Shown: positions 1-16,589 of the stretch, one piece after another | How positions within the stretch are numbered: the first letter of the stretch is position 1 | Layout of the letters: the number at the start of each line of letters is the position of its first letter | DNA from: a virus | DNA length: 27,616 nt | Strand: one strand, 5' to 3' | Virus record (IMG/VR): IMGVR_UViG_3300035180_000306 | Span: 1-27,616 of that record | Notes under the pieces: model-generated | Database searches by the model: none | What the model was told of the DNA's origin: nothing | Seen by the model: the letters and a program-made list of their open reading frames with translations, nothing else | Program-made: the position numbers and the translations under genes

Positions 1-123
1 AAGATGGAGAAGACCCTTGGGAGTATGCCCATCGCTGCGGTAGTGGCAGGGTTTGAGTTCAAAGACGAAAAATGGATAGACTTCGATGTCTCTGGTAATT
101 TGGTGCAAAGACTCGCAAGCTAA
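1..123 (+). CDS. 3' end of an unidentified gene upstream of the polymerase
   Basis: An open frame runs from the first base of the window to a TAA at 121-123 and is cut off at its 5' end. The visible 40 residues include the short stretches GSMPIAAVVAGFEF and KWIDFDVSGN. I do not recognise the family. An ATG at 4-6 exists, but nothing upstream can be seen to judge it as a start. The gene overlaps the proposed polymerase start at 86 by 38 bp in another frame, which is longer than the other overlaps in this window. Either the two genes truly overlap, or the polymerase starts lower down, for example at the in-frame GTG at 125. By position it probably belongs to the replication module. Confidence 0.5.
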   Translation, partial: KMEKTLGSMPIAAVVAGFEFKDEKWIDFDVSGNLVQRLAS

Positions 124-2458
124 GGTGCTCACGGCCCTGTCCCCGGTTCTGTCCGGGTTCAATGGCCTGGACATCCAGATTGTGAATGACCTGACCACTA
201 CCCCCAAAGTGCAGGGGGCTGTGGTCATTTTGGCGTTGGGGAATGACCCCAAGCTGTTGATGGAGACTATGAAGGTGGTGCCCAAGGGGCGAACCACCAC
301 AAGTCTTCGAGGCAGCTACTTCGGGCACGAGACCTTTGGTTGCCCGATCATGTTCAGCTACGCCCCCGGGATTGTGGACATGGACTACGGCAAGTACGTC
401 GATCTGTTGACCGATGTTGGCACTGCCTGCCGCTTCGCCAAGACGGGCTCCAAGAGTCCTGTGTTGGGGGAGTACAAATACGTGGACGACTTTAAGGAGG
501 TGAACGCTAGGGTTGATGCCCTGTTCGCTGAGACTGGAAAGCCAGTCGAATCCACGCTGGACTTGGAGACAGTGGGACTAGACCCCTATCTGCTCCCAAA
601 AGATGATCACCCAGGCGCATACATTGTCACGGTGCAAGTATCGGTTGAACCAGGCAAGTCCTACGTGAAACGCTTCGATAGCCGGAAGGCGGAGGAAGCG
701 GGGCTGTCGGATATGGAGTTCTTGGAGCAGTTGGGCTGGTTCCTGAATACCCCCAAGGTGAGCCTTGGTGGTGCGAACCTGAAATTCGATCTTCACTGGG
801 TAGCTGTGAGGGCCCGCCTGGAATGCACGAACTTCAAGTTCGACACCACCCTCGTAGGCTCTTTGCTTGATGAGAACCGCTCGAACGGCCTGGATGTCCA
901 TGTGAAAATCTATGCCCCTGAGTTGGGGGGTTACTCGGACGAGTTTGATAGGCAGATTGACAAGAGTCGGATGGACTTGGTGCCACCAGAGACCCTGCTG
1001 CCTTACGCTGGTGGTGATACGGATGGCTGTCTGCGTGTCCGCAAAGTGATGAAGCAGGACTTGCTGAAGACACCGGCACTGGCAGGCTTTTACGTGAACA
1101 TCCTCCACCCTGCGGCCCGAGCCTTCGAGATGGTGGAGCGCGGTGGCGTGCTGGTGGACATGGACGCCTACAAGGAATTGGAGGCAGACCTCCTCGGTGA
1201 ACTAGACACGCTGACCACCAAGGCTAAGAGCATCATGGGGGGACGATTGGTAGCCAAACACCATGACCCCGACAAGAGGGGTGGCTTGAACCTGACCAAG
1301 GCCAGTCTGTTGGTGGATTTTATGTTCTCCCCGATGGGCCTGAACTTGAAGCCTAAGATGACCACGGAGAAGACCGGAGCCCCGAGCACCTCTTTGGATC
1401 ACCTGATGATGTTCAAGGAAGTACCCGAAGCCACGGAGTTCGTCGCACTGCTGAAGGACTTCTCTTCGGCCACGAAGACGCTTGCCACCTACGTGTATGG
1501 GTTCCAAAAGCACATTCGTAGTGATGGAAGATTCCACCCCTCATATTACTTCTTTGCGGGTAACAAGGATGAAGGTGAAGGGGGAACCAATACTGGGAGG
1601 TTGTCGTGTAGAGACCCTGCGTTCCAGACCATACCAAAGCATACTAAATGGGCGAAGAAGCTACGTAAGTGTTTCCCAGCCCCGCCAGGAATGCTTGTGC
1701 TGGAGAACGACTACTCTCAAGGTGAACTGCGGGTGATCGCCTGTATAGCCAACGATGAGACCATGATAGAGGCGTATGCCCGGGGCATGGACTTGCACGT
1801 CATAACCTCTGGTCGGTTCGCTGGCTACAGTTACGAGGAAATGCTGGCCCTGAAAAAGACGAATAAGGAGATGTTCGACCGCATACGGCAGCTTGGCAAA
1901 GCGGGTAATTTCGGGCTGATCTATGGCATGGGAACAGAAGGGTTCCAGAGCTACGCGGAACTGAACTACGGCGTTAAGCTCTCCTTCGAGGAGGCGGACA
2001 AGTTCCGCTCGGGATTCTTCGAGACGTATTACCGTCTGCCGGAGTACCACAAGACCTACAAAGCCTTCGCACGGAAGCATGGGTACGTCACCTCCCCCCT
2101 GGGCCGGGTGCGCCATCTCCCGCTGATCAATAGCGTGAAGCGCGAAGTGCAGGCGGGTGCTGAACGCCAGGCCATCAACAGTCCGGTGCAGAGCTGCCTG
2201 TCTGACATGATGATCTGGGCTATTGCGATCTCCCATCAGCAGGGCTGGTTTAAGGAAGCTCCCTGCTTCGGGGCCATCCATGACGCCAAGTACGTCTACA
2301 TACCAGAGGACAACTACGAGTTCTACGTGAAGCGCGAACTGGAGTTGATGGAGTCGCTTCCGTTTGAAAAAGTTGGTTGGAAGCCTCAACTGAAGTTCGT
2401 GGCTGATGCCAAGATCGGGCGCAACATGGCAGAGTTGAGGGAGTTCGACCGGAAATGA
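86..2458 (+). CDS. DNA polymerase, family A, with 3'-5' proofreading exonuclease
   Basis: This is a 790-residue replicative DNA polymerase of the Pol I (family A) type. The exonuclease domain has three recognisable motifs: LDLET with D159 and E161 (Exo I), NLKFD with D235 (Exo II) and YAGGD with Y307 and D311 (Exo III). The polymerase domain has motif A, ENDYSQGELR with catalytic D542; motif B from R601, RQLGKAGNFGLIYG; and motif C around H732-D733. Motif C reads HDAK where most family members have HDE, so the acidic residue after the catalytic Asp is Ala. The first ~140 residues match nothing I know. There is no 5'-3' exonuclease domain, as usual for phage enzymes. ATG 86 is chosen because a weak GGA lies about 9 bases upstream; GTG 125 is the alternative. 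It is the last gene before a terminator and the structural genes, so it probably closes the replication unit. Confidence 0.95.
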   Translation: MSLVIWCKDSQAKVLTALSPVLSGFNGLDIQIVNDLTTTPKVQGAVVILALGNDPKLLMETMKVVPKGRTTTSLRGSYFGHETFGCPIMFSYAPGIVDMDYGKYVDLLTDVGTACRFAKTGSKSPVLGEYKYVDDFKEVNARVDALFAETGKPVESTLDLETVGLDPYLLPKDDHPGAYIVTVQVSVEPGKSYVKRFDSRKAEEAGLSDMEFLEQLGWFLNTPKVSLGGANLKFDLHWVAVRARLECTNFKFDTTLVGSLLDENRSNGLDVHVKIYAPELGGYSDEFDRQIDKSRMDLVPPETLLPYAGGDTDGCLRVRKVMKQDLLKTPALAGFYVNILHPAARAFEMVERGGVLVDMDAYKELEADLLGELDTLTTKAKSIMGGRLVAKHHDPDKRGGLNLTKASLLVDFMFSPMGLNLKPKMTTEKTGAPSTSLDHLMMFKEVPEATEFVALLKDFSSATKTLATYVYGFQKHIRSDGRFHPSYYFFAGNKDEGEGGTNTGRLSCRDPAFQTIPKHTKWAKKLRKCFPAPPGMLVLENDYSQGELRVIACIANDETMIEAYARGMDLHVITSGRFAGYSYEEMLALKKTNKEMFDRIRQLGKAGNFGLIYGMGTEGFQSYAELNYGVKLSFEEADKFRSGFFETYYRLPEYHKTYKAFARKHGYVTSPLGRVRHLPLINSVKREVQAGAERQAINSPVQSCLSDMMIWAIAISHQQGWFKEAPCFGAIHDAKYVYIPEDNYEFYVKRELELMESLPFEKVGWKPQLKFVADAKIGRNMAELREFDRK

Positions 2459-11192: not shown

Positions 11193-11243
11193 CCGCTGAG
11201 TGTAAATCTGGGTGGAAGCACCCTCTTTCTAGGAGATTAAAAA

Positions 11244-11999
11244 ATGGCAACTTGGGACGCGGTGGATCACTACTACTCCGGTCAGGGCGTGGTGCTGCTG
11301 GCCGAACGCGATGCGCAGGGCAAGCCCACTGGCTTTGTTCCTGTCGGCAACGTGTCCGATCTGAAGATCACTGTCAGCACCTCGGTGCTGGAGCACAAGG
11401 AGTCGCACACCGGCCAGCGTGGCACGGATTTGCGTCTGACCACAGAAACGAAGTGCGCTCTGTCGATGACGATGGAGAACTTCGTGGCCGATAACTTGGC
11501 CCGCGTGTCGCGGGGTGCGGCAACCAAGGTAGCTGCCGCTACCATCACGGGAGAGGCCATCAATGCGTCCCTCGGCAAGGTAGTGTCGCTGGCGCACATC
11601 AAGGTCAGTAACGTGGTTGTGAAGCACGGAAATACTACCCTGGTGGCTGGCACAGACTACTTCGTGAACGCTGACGCGGGGTCGATCAAGTTCGCGGACA
11701 CGATTATTGGTGTGGCCGATGGCGACGCGCTGACGGTGGACTACCAGTTCGCTGACCAGCTTGTGGTAGATGCCCTGACCCAGGGCGCTAAGGAACTGTA
11801 CATGCGCTTCGAGGGCCTGAACACCGCTGAAGGCAATGACCCGGTAGTGGTAGAAGTGTTCAAGTTCAGTACCGACCCGTTCAAAGAACTGGCGCTTATC
11901 GGTGACACGGTGCAGTCGTTCGTGCTGGAAGGCTCCGTGCTGGCTGACGGCTCCCGCAGCGTAGGCAGCAAATACTTTAAGGTAACGAAGCTGAACTGA
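11244..11999 (+). CDS. Major tail tube protein
   Basis: This 251-residue protein is the likely tube subunit. It opens with YYSGQGVVLLAERDAQGKPTGFVPVGNVSDLKI and continues as a strand-rich protein with LEHKESHTGQRGTDLRLTTETKCALSMTMEN and a C-terminal FVLEGSVLADGSRSVGSKYFKV. These fit tail tube proteins of long-tailed phages. It has its own promoter, a strong ribosome binding site (CTAGGAGAT at 11229-11237) and a terminator after it, as expected for a high-copy structural protein. The chaperone pair and tape measure follow. A repeat-like insertion (VVVKHGNTTLVAGTDYFVN) may form an extra surface domain. Confidence 0.85.
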   Translation: MATWDAVDHYYSGQGVVLLAERDAQGKPTGFVPVGNVSDLKITVSTSVLEHKESHTGQRGTDLRLTTETKCALSMTMENFVADNLARVSRGAATKVAAATITGEAINASLGKVVSLAHIKVSNVVVKHGNTTLVAGTDYFVNADAGSIKFADTIIGVADGDALTVDYQFADQLVVDALTQGAKELYMRFEGLNTAEGNDPVVVEVFKFSTDPFKELALIGDTVQSFVLEGSVLADGSRSVGSKYFKVTKLN

Positions 12000-12010
12000 T
12001 AGAGTGCCAG

Positions 12011-12040
12011 TTGTGCAATCAATTGCAAGGCTGGCATAAT
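12011..12040 (+). promoter_or_regulatory. Possible promoter before the tape measure chaperone
   Basis: TTGTGC at 12011-12016 and CATAAT at 12035-12040 with an 18-bp spacer. The 14-bp motif (12014-12027) fills the end of the -35 and the spacer. Transcription would start near 12047, inside the 5' arm of the terminator, so the new RNA could not form the full stem. Both boxes are weak. Confidence 0.35.
12014..12027 (+). repeat. 14-bp motif, copy 6 (between tail tube and chaperone)
   Basis: TGCAATCAATTGCA, 15 bp after the tail tube stop and 16 bp before the terminator stem, within a possible promoter spacer. Confidence 0.92.
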
Positions 12041-12042
12041 GT

Positions 12043-12075
12043 GGGAGGGCAGAGATGCCCTCCCTTTTTCTTTGT
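12043..12075 (+). terminator. Strong intrinsic terminator after the tail tube gene
   Basis: GGGAGGGCA (12043-12051) pairs perfectly with TGCCCTCCC (12056-12064) around a GAGA loop. It is followed by a T-rich run at 12065-12073. This is the strongest terminator in the window. Confidence 0.92.
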
Positions 12076-12094
12076 ACCCTGAATGGAGTCAATC

Positions 12095-12514
12095 ATGAGC
12101 GAATCGACCGACCTGAACAAGATCATCCCCTCCGACGAACCGATGGTCATTGGCGGCAAGACGATCACCCCCCGCACCATGAAGGTGAAGCAGTTACCAG
12201 CCGTCCTCAAGGCCGTGCAGCCCTTCGCAGGCGTTTTCAAGGACGGTGTGCAGTCGCTTGACATCCCCACCCTGCTGATCGACTACACGCCCAACGTGGT
12301 GGAATTGGTTCACCAGTTGACCGGTGAAGACAAGGAGTGGGTAGAGAACCTGGAGTTGGACGAGATGATCGAGGTCTTCACCAAGGTTGTGGAGGTCAAC
12401 CTCGATTTTTTTATCCGAAAAGTGCTACCCCTGTTGTCCGAGGCGATGGTTCGGCTCGGAGGCGGCTTGTCCAGCAAGACTCAGATCAGTGGGCAGGCAT
12501 CTTCCAGCACTTGA
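12095..12514 (+). CDS. Tape measure chaperone, zero-frame product (gpG-like)
   Basis: This 139-residue protein sits directly before the tape measure gene and has the look of lambda gpG-type tail assembly chaperones: an N-terminal MVIGGKTITPRTMKVKQLPAVLKAV, then LLIDYTPNVVELVHQLTGED and ELDEMIEVFTKVVEVNLDFF. ATG 12095 is preferred over ATG 12083 because GGAG at 12085-12088 is well spaced from it. The zero frame contains GAT TTT TTT ATC at 12404-12415, giving a perfect T-TTT-TTT slippery heptamer at 12406-12412. A long open -1 frame continues to the tape measure start. The unshifted product ends with GLSSKTQISGQASSST. Confidence 0.82.
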   Translation: MSESTDLNKIIPSDEPMVIGGKTITPRTMKVKQLPAVLKAVQPFAGVFKDGVQSLDIPTLLIDYTPNVVELVHQLTGEDKEWVENLELDEMIEVFTKVVEVNLDFFIRKVLPLLSEAMVRLGGGLSSKTQISGQASSST

Positions 12515-12702
12515 TAAGCAGCGGCCATCGGTACAACGACATCTTGGAATACACATGGCCGCAACTGCTGGCGTTCTCAAAGGCCGCAGCAGCGGAACGG
12601 GACAGTCGCTCAGTGGAGCATTTTTCGCTACTATTGACGGCACAAAGGGGCGACAAGAAAGCCATTGATCGCCTCTTCAACGTGTACACGAGAGGTAAGT
12701 AA
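12095..12702 (+). CDS. Tape measure chaperone, -1 frameshift fusion (gpGT-like)
   Basis: A -1 slip at T-TTT-TTT (12406-12412) would join the first 106 residues of the gpG-like protein to a 96-residue extension read from 12412 to 12699, giving about 202 residues. The extension contains WAGIFQHLISSGHRYNDILEY, then WPQLLAFSKAAAAERDSRS and KKAIDRLFNVYTRGK. It has the helical character of gpT domains and has no usable start with a good ribosome binding site. Phage P2 uses a similar T6G slippery site for E/E'. The T7 run is unusual in this GC-rich DNA, where Phe is often TTC. The linker between the slip site and the convincing T domain (about 12412-12480) is Arg-rich and less convincing, so a slip nearer the zero-frame stop is not excluded. 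The stop overlaps the tape measure ATG (TAATG). Confidence 0.72.
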
Positions 12703-15700
12703 TGGCATCGTCTAACCTGCAAATCCTGGTTCAAGCCTTTGTCCAAGGGCTCGACCAACTCCAGCAACTTGGGCGGCAGATGTCCCAGGTCGGGGTGGAT
12801 GCACAACAGGCTGGTCAGTCAGCAGGCGGGGCGGCTCAGGGATTCACCGCCGCTGGGCAAGGTGCGGCCAACGCTGGAGGTCAACTAGCTCAGTTTGTGG
12901 CCCAGGGGAATGAGGCAGCAGCCTCCTTCAAATCCTTGATCGAGTTAGCGAAAGGGGCTGCGGTGGCCTTCGCTGGCTTCGTCGCCGTCGCCTCGATGAA
13001 GGACGCGGCAGACATATCGGCTCGCAATGAGACGCTGGGCGTGACTCTCGGTATCGTCGGCAAGAACGCCGGGTACACCACGGAGGAGCTTGCCAAGTAT
13101 GAGACCGAGGTGAAGGGGCTGGGCATCACGACCAGTGCCGCCCGGGACTCGCTTATCCAGATGATTCAGGCAGGGCTGCAAATTGGCCCTGTAGCTGCGG
13201 GTGGTGCATCTCAGATCGCACTCATGGCTCGCGCTGCCCAAGACTTGGCGGTGGTGACAGGTGAGAACTCCTCGTCCACGCTGCGCCGGATGATCACGAA
13301 CATCCAGCAGTTGGATGTAGTAGGTCTCCGCTTCATGGGCATTGTCGTCAACCTGGAAGACGCGACAGCCAAGTATGCAGAGAAGCTAGGCAAGACCGCT
13401 GGAGCCCTCACTAGCACAGAGAAGCAGCAAGCTCTGCTCAATGCTGCAATGGAGAAGGCGAGGGGCTTGCAAGGGGCCTACGAGGCTTCCCTGGACACCG
13501 TGGGAAAGAAGCTCTCTTCCATGAAACGGTATCAGGAAGAGGCTGCGTCGGCCATTGGTAACACCCTGCTCCCGGCCTACACCGTATTGGTGGATGCAGC
13601 CACGGCTTTCCTGAAGAAGGTGCAGGAGATCGCCTCGGGTATCGCTGAGAGTGGTAAGGTAGCACAAGTCCTCAAAGACATCATGAGGGGTGTGTTGGAC
13701 TTCGCGGGGGAGATCACCTCTGCCTTGGTGGGTGCTTTGCAATCAATTGCACCAGCACTTGAGTCCGCGTTCAGCAAGCTCCAGGAGGCGTTCAAGGACA
13801 TCGACCTTGGCGGCATCACCGAAGGATTCAAGACGATACTAGGCTACGCCGTTGACTTCGGCACTGCGGTGGTGAACGCCATCGGTGATGCCGCCCCAAG
13901 CATCCGCCTGCTGGTTGACGCCTTCGGTATGGTTGGCTCTGCCATCATGGACGCCGTGAAGGAAATCTTCAGCTTTGGTGAGGGAATGGGGGATGCCAAC
14001 GCCGCAGGAGACCTCCTGTCCACCCTCCTACAGTCCCTGGGGCTTCTGGTTGCTGGCTTTGCTGACGGCTTGAATGCCGTCAAGGCGGTGGCCGAGGTAA
14101 TGTTCGCTGGCCTGACTGTAGGATTCGGAGCCATAGCCAATGTGATAGGGGATGTGGTGGGCCTAGTGAGCAAAGACCTTGGTCAAGCCTTCAAGCAGGT
14201 TGGTGATGCCGCCATTGAGATGGGTATGAAGTCGGCTGAGGCTGCTCGCAAGACCTTCGAGAGTTTCTCCACTGGAGAAACCTACGTCCAGAAGTACGCC
14301 GACAAGCTCAAGGAACTGCCTGCGGCCCACGAAGCTGACGCCGAAGCAGCTAAGAAGTCCGCTGACGTGAAGAAGGAGGCCTTCAATCAAGCTGAAGAGT
14401 TGGTTCGTAAATACACGAGGGCTGTGAATGATGGCAAGTTGTCTGGTGAGGCGGCTGCCACTGAGTTCAAGAATGTGACTGCTGAGATCGCTACGATGGC
14501 GAAGGAGTTCGATTTCACTCAGAAGGAAGTCGAGCAACTGAACAACAAGTTGCAGGGCTCTCTGGACAAGTCGGACAAGACTGCTGAAGCCTTCAAGACG
14601 CTGGGCACTACTGCCTCGGATTTCGGCAAACAGACCTCTGCTGCTGGCACCAGGGCAGTGGAGGCGTTCAACCAGTTGGCCCAATCCGGTAAGCTGACCT
14701 CGGAGGAACTGTACCGTGCCTTCGACAAGGCGCTGAACATGGAGACTTCCATCGCGGGGCTCACACAGTTCCGTCAGGCGCTGGATCAGGCCTTCAAGGA
14801 TGGCAAGATCAGTGCAGAAGAGTACGGCTCTGCCGTGCAATTGGTAGGGGCCAAGTTCGACGAACTTCTGGACAAGCAACTGAAGGCTGCCCACACCAAG
14901 GAAGACTTCAAGCAGTTGGAAGATCAGGTTAAGGCGCTGGGTGATTCCGGGGCCATCTCCGGTCAGCAGGTATCCAGTGCCCTGGAGAAGATTCAGGAGA
15001 AGGCATCTGGAGCCCGTGAAGAGATTCAGCGCCTTGCTCAGCAGCAGACCGCATTGGCGGAGGCTTCGACCCGTCTGGCTAAAGCTGACCTCGCAGCCAC
15101 CCAAGCTAACATAGAAGTACAGCGTGCCATGAACGCCCTGATCCAGGCCGAGATTCGCTTCCGTCAGGACGGCACTGAGCTTGCCCAGCAGGAACTCGAA
15201 GCCGCACGCCTGAACGTACAACTGGCCGAGCAGAGGGAGCAGCTTGCCCAACTTCAGAGGCAGCAAGAGTCCGCTGCGATGGATGTGCTGATCGCCAAGC
15301 AGCAACTCCTGAACGCTGAGAAGGAAAAAGAACTCAACATCGGTAATGCTATTATTGCCGCTAAGGTTGATGCTGCACAGAAGGAGTTGGAGTCGAAGCA
15401 ACTGGTGTTGGAGCACACGAAGCAAGATGTCGAGGCCCAACAGCAAAATGTGATAGTCACTCAAGCTGCGGCGGAGCAAGCTCGTGTGTTGGCCGATAAC
15501 ATGCGTGACGCTGCGGACAACACCAAGAAGACCGCTGAGGCTGGTAATGGTGTTAAGGGTTGGGTAGTAGATTCTTCGGAGCAGATCGCCACCTTCACCT
15601 CCGACAGTGTGGTGCAGCAGTTCCGGCAGATCGGATTGTCCCTTGAGGAGGCATCTAAACGGGCCTATGATCTGATGGGGGGCATGAACGCGGTGGTGGC

Positions 15701-16589
15701 CTTTGGTAAGGAAGGGGTGAACCATTACTACGCCATCATGACGGCCATCCAGGAGACCAAGAAAGAACTGGAGGCTCAAGCCGAAGCTGCCAAGGCTGTG
15801 GAAGAGAACTACCGCAAGGTGAAGGATCAAGCCGAGGACATCGCCAGTGGGGCGGAGGATGCCACCAACCAGATGGGAGAATGGGGTGACAGTGCTAACG
15901 CCGTGTCGGAAGCCTACCGTCGCATTCGCAAGGATGCCACTGCCGCCGCTACCGCCGCCAATGACTCCGCCCGCTCCTTTATAGACTCTGCATTGAGTAT
16001 CCAGGAAGAACTTCTGAATGCCCAGGGCAAGGAAGATGAGGCCACCAAGTTACGCTACTCGCAGCGCCAAAAGGAATTGGCCCTTGAGTACCAAATGCTT
16101 CAGGTCAAGATTCGTGCGGCCATTGTGACGGCTAAGGCAGCAGGGGTGAACACTGGGGACTTGGAGAAGTCTTTGGCGGATGCTTCCTCCGCATACCAGC
16201 AAGCTCAAAACGACCTGAAGGAACTGGAGCGTCTCGATCTCGAATCCATCAGCAAGAAGCGAGAAGAGGAGAAGAAGGCGGATGACGAAGCAAAGGCTCG
16301 TGCAGCAGAGGATGCCCGCAAGGCTGATGAAGACAAAAAGGCTGCTGCCGCTGAAGATACTGCCTCTAAGGTGAATGAACTCACGGTTGCGAGTCATGTG
16401 TCGAGGGCAGTTGACAACAGCATGAGCTACGTGCAATCAATTGCAAACGGATGTTCGCTGTCGGGTGGCTCCAGCAAGACGGTGACGGTAAACTTCACCC
16501 TCGGGAGTTCTAGTGTTCCGGTGCAGGTGGCGGAGGGTGATGAGACTCAGTTGCTTGACCTGCTCCAACGTGCAAGAGGTGTCGCATGA
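12702..16589 (+). CDS. Tail tape measure protein
   Basis: At 1295 residues this is the longest gene and is placed directly after the chaperone pair. Tape measures set tail length; at about 1.5 Å per residue this predicts a tail near 190 nm. It is mostly helical. Hydrophobic segments lie at about residues 83-100 (AKGAAVAFAGFVAVASM) and 445-490 (SLGLLVAGFADGL, MFAGLTVGFGAIANVIGDVVG), typical of regions thought to reach the host membrane. Residues ~560-760 contain loosely repeated 'DGK(L/I)SxE' units, and ~770-945 and ~1100-1225 are long coiled coils rich in Gln, Glu, Ala and Lys. No peptidase motif was noticed. Two 14-bp motif copies lie inside, both read as Gln-Ser-Ile-Ala. The gene overlaps the next by an ATGA junction. 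Confidence 0.93.
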   Translation: MASSNLQILVQAFVQGLDQLQQLGRQMSQVGVDAQQAGQSAGGAAQGFTAAGQGAANAGGQLAQFVAQGNEAAASFKSLIELAKGAAVAFAGFVAVASMKDAADISARNETLGVTLGIVGKNAGYTTEELAKYETEVKGLGITTSAARDSLIQMIQAGLQIGPVAAGGASQIALMARAAQDLAVVTGENSSSTLRRMITNIQQLDVVGLRFMGIVVNLEDATAKYAEKLGKTAGALTSTEKQQALLNAAMEKARGLQGAYEASLDTVGKKLSSMKRYQEEAASAIGNTLLPAYTVLVDAATAFLKKVQEIASGIAESGKVAQVLKDIMRGVLDFAGEITSALVGALQSIAPALESAFSKLQEAFKDIDLGGITEGFKTILGYAVDFGTAVVNAIGDAAPSIRLLVDAFGMVGSAIMDAVKEIFSFGEGMGDANAAGDLLSTLLQSLGLLVAGFADGLNAVKAVAEVMFAGLTVGFGAIANVIGDVVGLVSKDLGQAFKQVGDAAIEMGMKSAEAARKTFESFSTGETYVQKYADKLKELPAAHEADAEAAKKSADVKKEAFNQAEELVRKYTRAVNDGKLSGEAAATEFKNVTAEIATMAKEFDFTQKEVEQLNNKLQGSLDKSDKTAEAFKTLGTTASDFGKQTSAAGTRAVEAFNQLAQSGKLTSEELYRAFDKALNMETSIAGLTQFRQALDQAFKDGKISAEEYGSAVQLVGAKFDELLDKQLKAAHTKEDFKQLEDQVKALGDSGAISGQQVSSALEKIQEKASGAREEIQRLAQQQTALAEASTRLAKADLAATQANIEVQRAMNALIQAEIRFRQDGTELAQQELEAARLNVQLAEQREQLAQLQRQQESAAMDVLIAKQQLLNAEKEKELNIGNAIIAAKVDAAQKELESKQLVLEHTKQDVEAQQQNVIVTQAAAEQARVLADNMRDAADNTKKTAEAGNGVKGWVVDSSEQIATFTSDSVVQQFRQIGLSLEEASKRAYDLMGGMNAVVAFGKEGVNHYYAIMTAIQETKKELEAQAEAAKAVEENYRKVKDQAEDIASGAEDATNQMGEWGDSANAVSEAYRRIRKDATAAATAANDSARSFIDSALSIQEELLNAQGKEDEATKLRYSQRQKELALEYQMLQVKIRAAIVTAKAAGVNTGDLEKSLADASSAYQQAQNDLKELERLDLESISKKREEEKKADDEAKARAAEDARKADEDKKAAAAEDTASKVNELTVASHVSRAVDNSMSYVQSIANGCSLSGGSSKTVTVNFTLGSSSVPVQVAEGDETQLLDLLQRARGVA
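13738..13751 (+). repeat. 14-bp motif, copy 7 (inside tape measure gene)
   Basis: TGCAATCAATTGCA, read as TTG CAA TCA ATT GCA (Leu-Gln-Ser-Ile-Ala) near residue 346. Confidence 0.9.
16432..16445 (+). repeat. 14-bp motif, copy 8 (near the tape measure 3' end)
   Basis: TGCAATCAATTGCA, read as GTG CAA TCA ATT GCA (Val-Gln-Ser-Ile-Ala) near residue 1244, about 140 bp before the next gene starts. Confidence 0.9.

Follow-up and report, generated by a model that had tools for sequence, protein, structure and literature searches.

The window, that is, the whole stretch of DNA that was analysed, is a 27.6-kb virus record carrying genes for portal, head, neck, major tail and tape measure proteins together with further tail genes. 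Two overlapping reading frames, G and a -1 frame that continues beyond it, separate the major tail protein gene from the tape measure gene (Table 1). The stop of the -1 frame overlaps the tape measure ATG, the final A of the TAA being shared. A DNA polymerase gene (window 86-2455; PHROG 17, E 2.1e-110) stands immediately upstream of the portal gene, and no terminase is named among the 19 window proteins scanned. A distant blastn comparison of window DNA 11200-13700 with phage records gave no match. Upstream of G, beyond the end of the major tail protein gene, a strong terminator-like hairpin (window 12043-12074; 9 pairs, 7 of them G-C) is followed by TTTTTCTTTG; such a structure could reduce how strongly the chaperone and tape measure genes are transcribed.

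Table 1. Features of the tail chaperone locus, in window coordinates
Feature	Position	Strand	Evidence or remark
Major tail protein gene	11244..11999	+	PHROG 807, E 8.3e-72; context
G, tail assembly chaperone, zero-frame product, 139 aa	12095..12514	+	PHROG 1442, E 1.7e-21
Shine-Dalgarno-like GGAGGT, probable stimulator	12391..12396	+	Within Val-Glu-Val codons; role inferred
Slippery heptamer T-TTT-TTT	12406..12412	+	In register; T-TTT-TTY at the same codons in 30/30 representatives
T extension, -1 frame after the slip	12412..12702	+	Ends at TAA 12700-12702; open frame, PHROG matches, alignment
Tape measure protein gene	12702..16589	+	PHROG 1272, E 1.3e-6, and other tape measure PHROGs

The zero-frame product can be assigned by homology to a known family of tail assembly chaperones, that of PHROG 1442. 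Pfam Phage_TAC_15 stayed below its cut-off against G (18.2 against 22 bits, E 0.0038), and a search of solved structures returned enolases at E 0.27 or worse, none of them a credible match. An in-frame ATG is also present at 12083; the start at 12095 is more likely because GGAG at 12085-12088 is placed 6 nt upstream of it. The computed mass of G alone is 15.2 kDa.

The original prediction for this locus was a programmed -1 frameshift in the tape measure chaperone at a T-TTT-TTT heptamer. In the frame of the ORF 12083/12095-12514, bases 12404-12415 do read GAT TTT TTT ATC, and the heptamer at 12406-12412 has the X-XXY-YYZ register. Its first T is located 108 nt upstream of the last base of the zero-frame stop, in agreement with the distance of about 100 bases first given. 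No other in-frame heptamer occurs in the overlap of G with the -1 frame, and the site is the sole TTTTTTY on either strand of the window, for which dinucleotide shuffles expect 3.9; an in-frame T6 is absent from eleven long ORFs (7,226 codons). Codon permutation of G (20,000 trials) placed an in-frame T6 or A6 heptamer within the overlap in 0.5% of trials, and synonymous resampling with Phe-Phe held fixed did so in 8.5%. The single heptamer in the window is modestly surprising, suggestive rather than decisive, and for this reason it is conservation that decides whether the slip site is real. The rival view that the T run arose by chance, or that the split frame reflects a sequencing error or a decayed gene, finds some room in the same kind of trial, since the overlap contained some in-frame XXXYYYZ heptamer in 22% of codon permutations and in 31% of synonymous resamplings.

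The -1 frame is open over 12328-12702 (124 codons plus stop) and thus, as predicted, from the slip site to the tape measure start. By comparison, the -1 frames of 11 long ORFs contain 361 stop-free runs, the longest of 105 codons, and none reaches 124. The +1 frame is open as well (12369-12668) and was set aside, because the T homology sits in the -1 frame. T of the window matches PHROG 14432 (E 5.8e-8) and PHROG 13355 (E 5.2e-7), both of unknown function, and is homologous to the -1 part of annotated fusions in phages MP22, MP38 and Summit; an alignment of 26 T sequences has the core W....LI..GH...DI..YT. These similarities indicate that T is conserved as a protein domain, predicted to be joined to G via the -1 frame. 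A search of solved structures with T gave no credible match; the two best (E 0.0013 and 0.0022) are to designed repeat proteins and span only 26 to 31 residues.

T might instead be a separate protein, made from an internal or coupled start codon without any frameshift, and a small ORF is indeed annotated at this position in phages DLP5 (L041), Y8A (L034), LV6 (L040) and KarBoss (L036). Against this, the -1 frame of the window contains no ATG from 12328 onward, the GTG at 12337 is immediately preceded by AAGGA with zero spacing, the TTG at 12511 has no Shine-Dalgarno sequence at normal distance, and later GTG or TTG starts would truncate T. T has no convincing start of its own in the window. 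The original prediction had described a gpT-like domain without its own ribosome binding site and had named independent initiation as evidence that would overturn it; the domain is conserved, and neither the GTG nor the TTG is preceded by a properly spaced Shine-Dalgarno sequence. Separate synthesis of T also leaves the conserved heptamer unexplained, and is extremely unlikely.

The predicted fusion has a computed mass of 22.8 kDa, a small correction to the value of about 22 kDa proposed earlier. As for the Arg-rich linker that was said to lie in it, 5 Arg/Lys occur in the 34 codons between the slip site and the G stop of the window, and linkers differ in length and sequence among relatives, so Arg richness is not a family feature.

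Relatives were collected by searches with G and with T. One contig is nearly identical (99%), and the others are 14-40% identical in G (19 sequences) and 19-46% in T (25 sequences). The A1 scans required the peptide EVNLDFF (48 matched stretches led to 21 relatives and 51 to 4), which fixes Phe-Phe and leaves its codons free; the T-domain search and the tblastn searches impose no such requirement. An alignment of 20 sequences (A3) was too diverse to serve as a search query, and tblastn with the G of L005 against the phage collection found nothing. Five of the 39 phage records matching G (MP22, MP38, DMS3, JBD93 and Y8A) and five of the six matching T were opened, and the heptamer is present in eight of these ten. 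The resulting set of 30 representatives, window included, leaves out copies and near copies (L002/L011, L003-L006, L007-L009, L024, L039 and L041) and the Vibrio phages L036 and L040, which are without T6Y, and retains the close pairs L021/L026, L015/L017 and L033/L038. The heptamer was also seen in the omitted copies L002-L006, L024, L039 and L041.

Alignment of homologues had been suggested as a check on the original prediction, and it came out clearly in its favour. All 30 representatives carry T-TTT-TTY at the codons for (D/G)-F-F, with TTT (12) or TTC (18) as the second Phe codon, and the -1 frame counted from the heptamer is open for 72 to 121 codons. The first Phe is encoded by TTT in every representative, where codon usage of the same loci predicts 9.2 (formal P 1.9e-19), and the preceding codon always ends in T, where 12.1 would be expected (formal P 6.9e-14); since the representatives are related, these probabilities, which assume independence, are too small, although the direction is plain. 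The three loci found by the T domain only (L051-L053) all have the heptamer, preceded by Asp in two and His in one. L053 (1444-1453) has a run of nine Ts that includes two in-frame heptamers, T-TTT-TTT and T-TTT-TTA.

Homologues that lack the T7 run and share another slippery site, which had been named as a refuting case, were also sought. Among the G or T relatives examined, only two turned up, the Vibrio phages LV6 and KarBoss, which match in T only, have no T6Y, and each hold an in-frame A-AAA-AAG, a motif missing from the window's overlap. These two relatives place T differently with respect to G: LV6 has it in the -1 frame following A-AAA-AAG, and KarBoss (L036 1420-1713, PQ758715) in the +1 frame of its annotated G. 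The -1 frame entered from A-AAA-AAG in the KarBoss record does not reach T; it is similar to the final part of G in LV6, pointing to a one-base difference or a sequencing error within the A run. One further locus (L010), found via the tape measure protein only and included in no count, lacks T6Y throughout the 1000 bases that precede the first Met of its tape measure frame; no G or T was recognised by eye in that region.

This pattern bears directly on chance, error or decay as the origin of the split frame. The heptamer occupies the same codons in 30/30 representatives and in 3/3 loci found with T, drawn from viral metagenomes, isolated phages and bacterial assemblies; T is conserved as a protein, and a second contig (L002) shows the same frames. 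Because of the heptamer conservation, this explanation is excluded in practice. It also bears on slippage by RNA polymerase, in which transcripts of altered length at the T7 run would encode the fusion and the ribosome would not slip. T7 runs can provoke such slippage, which PMC4066793 names among the reasons for the rarity of UUUUUUU in E. coli genes, and the nine Ts of L053 would suit it. However, 18 of the 30 representatives have T6C, with just six Ts, and polymerase slippage would not need the register that is kept, a T-ending codon followed by TTT. It is therefore very unlikely.

Gene order, register, the stop-free -1 frame, the homologies found for G and for T, and retention of the slip site in diverged relatives together support the reading that the locus very probably encodes a chaperone pair of the lambda gpG/gpGT type, produced via programmed -1 ribosomal frameshifting; anatomy, homology and conservation thus uphold the core of the original prediction. 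Most ribosomes would translate G through to its stop. In a minority, TTT TTT in the P and A sites would re-pair one base back, and the slipped ribosomes would continue in the -1 frame (FF-YPKSA...) up to the TAA at 12700, yielding a G-T fusion of 202 residues as the minor product at a fixed ratio to G. The predicted role of both G and G-T is to bind the tape measure protein, and that of T is to recruit the major tail protein. We infer the slip, its ratio, the Shine-Dalgarno-like action described below and the functions of both products, with the product functions and the minor ratio taken from lambda. There, as described in PMC5009743, the tape measure protein is bound by gpG together with the scarcer gpGT, at about 30:1, and T is the part that binds the major tail protein; the -1 slip near the end of G, the minor fusion and the tape measure gene that follows resemble the window. 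For a tail chaperone cluster tested elsewhere, 6-7% frameshifting is given in PMC3711429. The window represents a new case of a type of frameshift already well known in long-tailed phages, and it supplies the fusion gene for an uncultured phage lineage. The slip site of lambda differs from that of the window; the likeness is one of arrangement and logic. This conserved tail chaperone frameshift was reportedly described by Xu, Hendrix and Duda in 2004.

An additional element, absent from the original prediction, is the GGAGGT that ends 9 nt before the first T of the slip site. The Glu codon within it is GAG in 24 of the 25 representatives with Glu there, as against 14.5 expected by codon usage (P 9e-6), and a control using other Glu-Val pairs of the same loci (GAG in 108 of 167) gives P 3e-4, both values assuming independence of loci. 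At the median locus this spot pairs with the anti-Shine-Dalgarno sequence so well that fewer than 1% of all 8-mers in G do as well. The element is thus a Shine-Dalgarno-like sequence, conserved among most relatives, within the 6-17 nt before the motif, as specified for signals of the dnaX/IS type. By analogy with dnaX it is a likely stimulator of the slip, probably acting by pairing with the tail of 16S rRNA in the ribosome that is translating G. The heptamer is kept in L015 and L053, which have GAA at the Glu codon, and in L034, L035 and L037, where anti-Shine-Dalgarno pairing is weak or missing, so the element is a common aid at most and not a requirement.

Shine-Dalgarno stimulators are described for dnaX and many IS elements in a review (PMC5009743), and a conserved Shine-Dalgarno sequence was found in 3 of 13 IS and prophage clusters searched 6-17 nt upstream (PMC4066793). 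For frameshifts in tail chaperones, sites of this kind already serve as a predictive feature in PRFect (PMC10885494). In the literature covered, which lacks most subscription journals, no text was found that describes a Shine-Dalgarno-like stimulator for this family of chaperones. It is conceivable, if somewhat doubtful, that the best conserved peptide, E-V-N-L-D-F-F, is kept largely for an RNA cassette made up of a 16S-pairing GAGGT, a fixed 9-nt spacer and T-TTT-TTY, with no downstream structure. If so, the family would set its G to G-T ratio via a Shine-Dalgarno-like element inside the gene, and this widely conserved element would be a simple lever on the chaperone ratio needed in tail assembly.

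Downstream structure was assessed in the 30 loci by folding, with pseudoknots left unscored: the mean z just after the site is -0.64, compared with -0.72 at a control offset 180 nt upstream. A hairpin AGGTTG/CAACCT (12384-12402), picked up by the terminator scan, is not conserved, as in 24 other loci 2 to 5 of its 6 positions are able to pair, and an Rfam search gave one match at chance level. The E. coli dnaX and IS signals have a Shine-Dalgarno-like stimulator before an X-XXY-YYZ heptamer (PMC5009743, PMC4066793), as the window probably does; dnaX differs in using A-AAA-AAG with a downstream hairpin, a feature that some bacterial signals lack, in an unrelated protein, whereas no conserved downstream structure was found in the family of the window.

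The closest known parallels are Mu-like siphophages of Pseudomonas aeruginosa, Casadabanvirus (MP22, MP38, DMS3 and JBD93) and PaMx73, with homologous G (relatives of PHROG 1442) and homologous T. Like the window, they have the pair flanked by the major tail protein upstream and the tape measure protein downstream, and an in-register slip site at the same codons. They differ in having T-TTT-TTC preceded by Gly before Phe-Phe, in contrast to T-TTT-TTT and Asp in the window, and protein identity is low (MP22 against the window, G 19% and T 25%). The U-UUU-UUC type of site is described for PaMx73 (PMC4378225) and for SPP1 (PMC6316719). The Stenotrophomonas phages Summit and DLP5 share T-TTT-TTT in register, homologous G and T (23% and 30% identical to the window, respectively) and a tape measure gene next, but Summit, unlike the window, shows no Shine-Dalgarno-like pairing at the upstream position.

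The MP22 record annotates the slippery site, the MP38 record names gpG/gpGT, and the Summit record annotates a frameshift product; in the sources seen, the frameshift of MP22, MP38, Summit and PaMx73 is an annotation or a prediction. Several public records of relatives, namely those of DMS3 (L038), JBD93 (L039), DLP5 and Y8A, carry the slip site and an open -1 frame without an annotated G-T fusion. Y8A, a Psychrobacter phage, has an unusual gene order at L034 1893-2239: its G-T pair is followed by an Arc-like gene on the opposite strand rather than by a tape measure gene, and is preceded by a Mu gpP-like tail gene.
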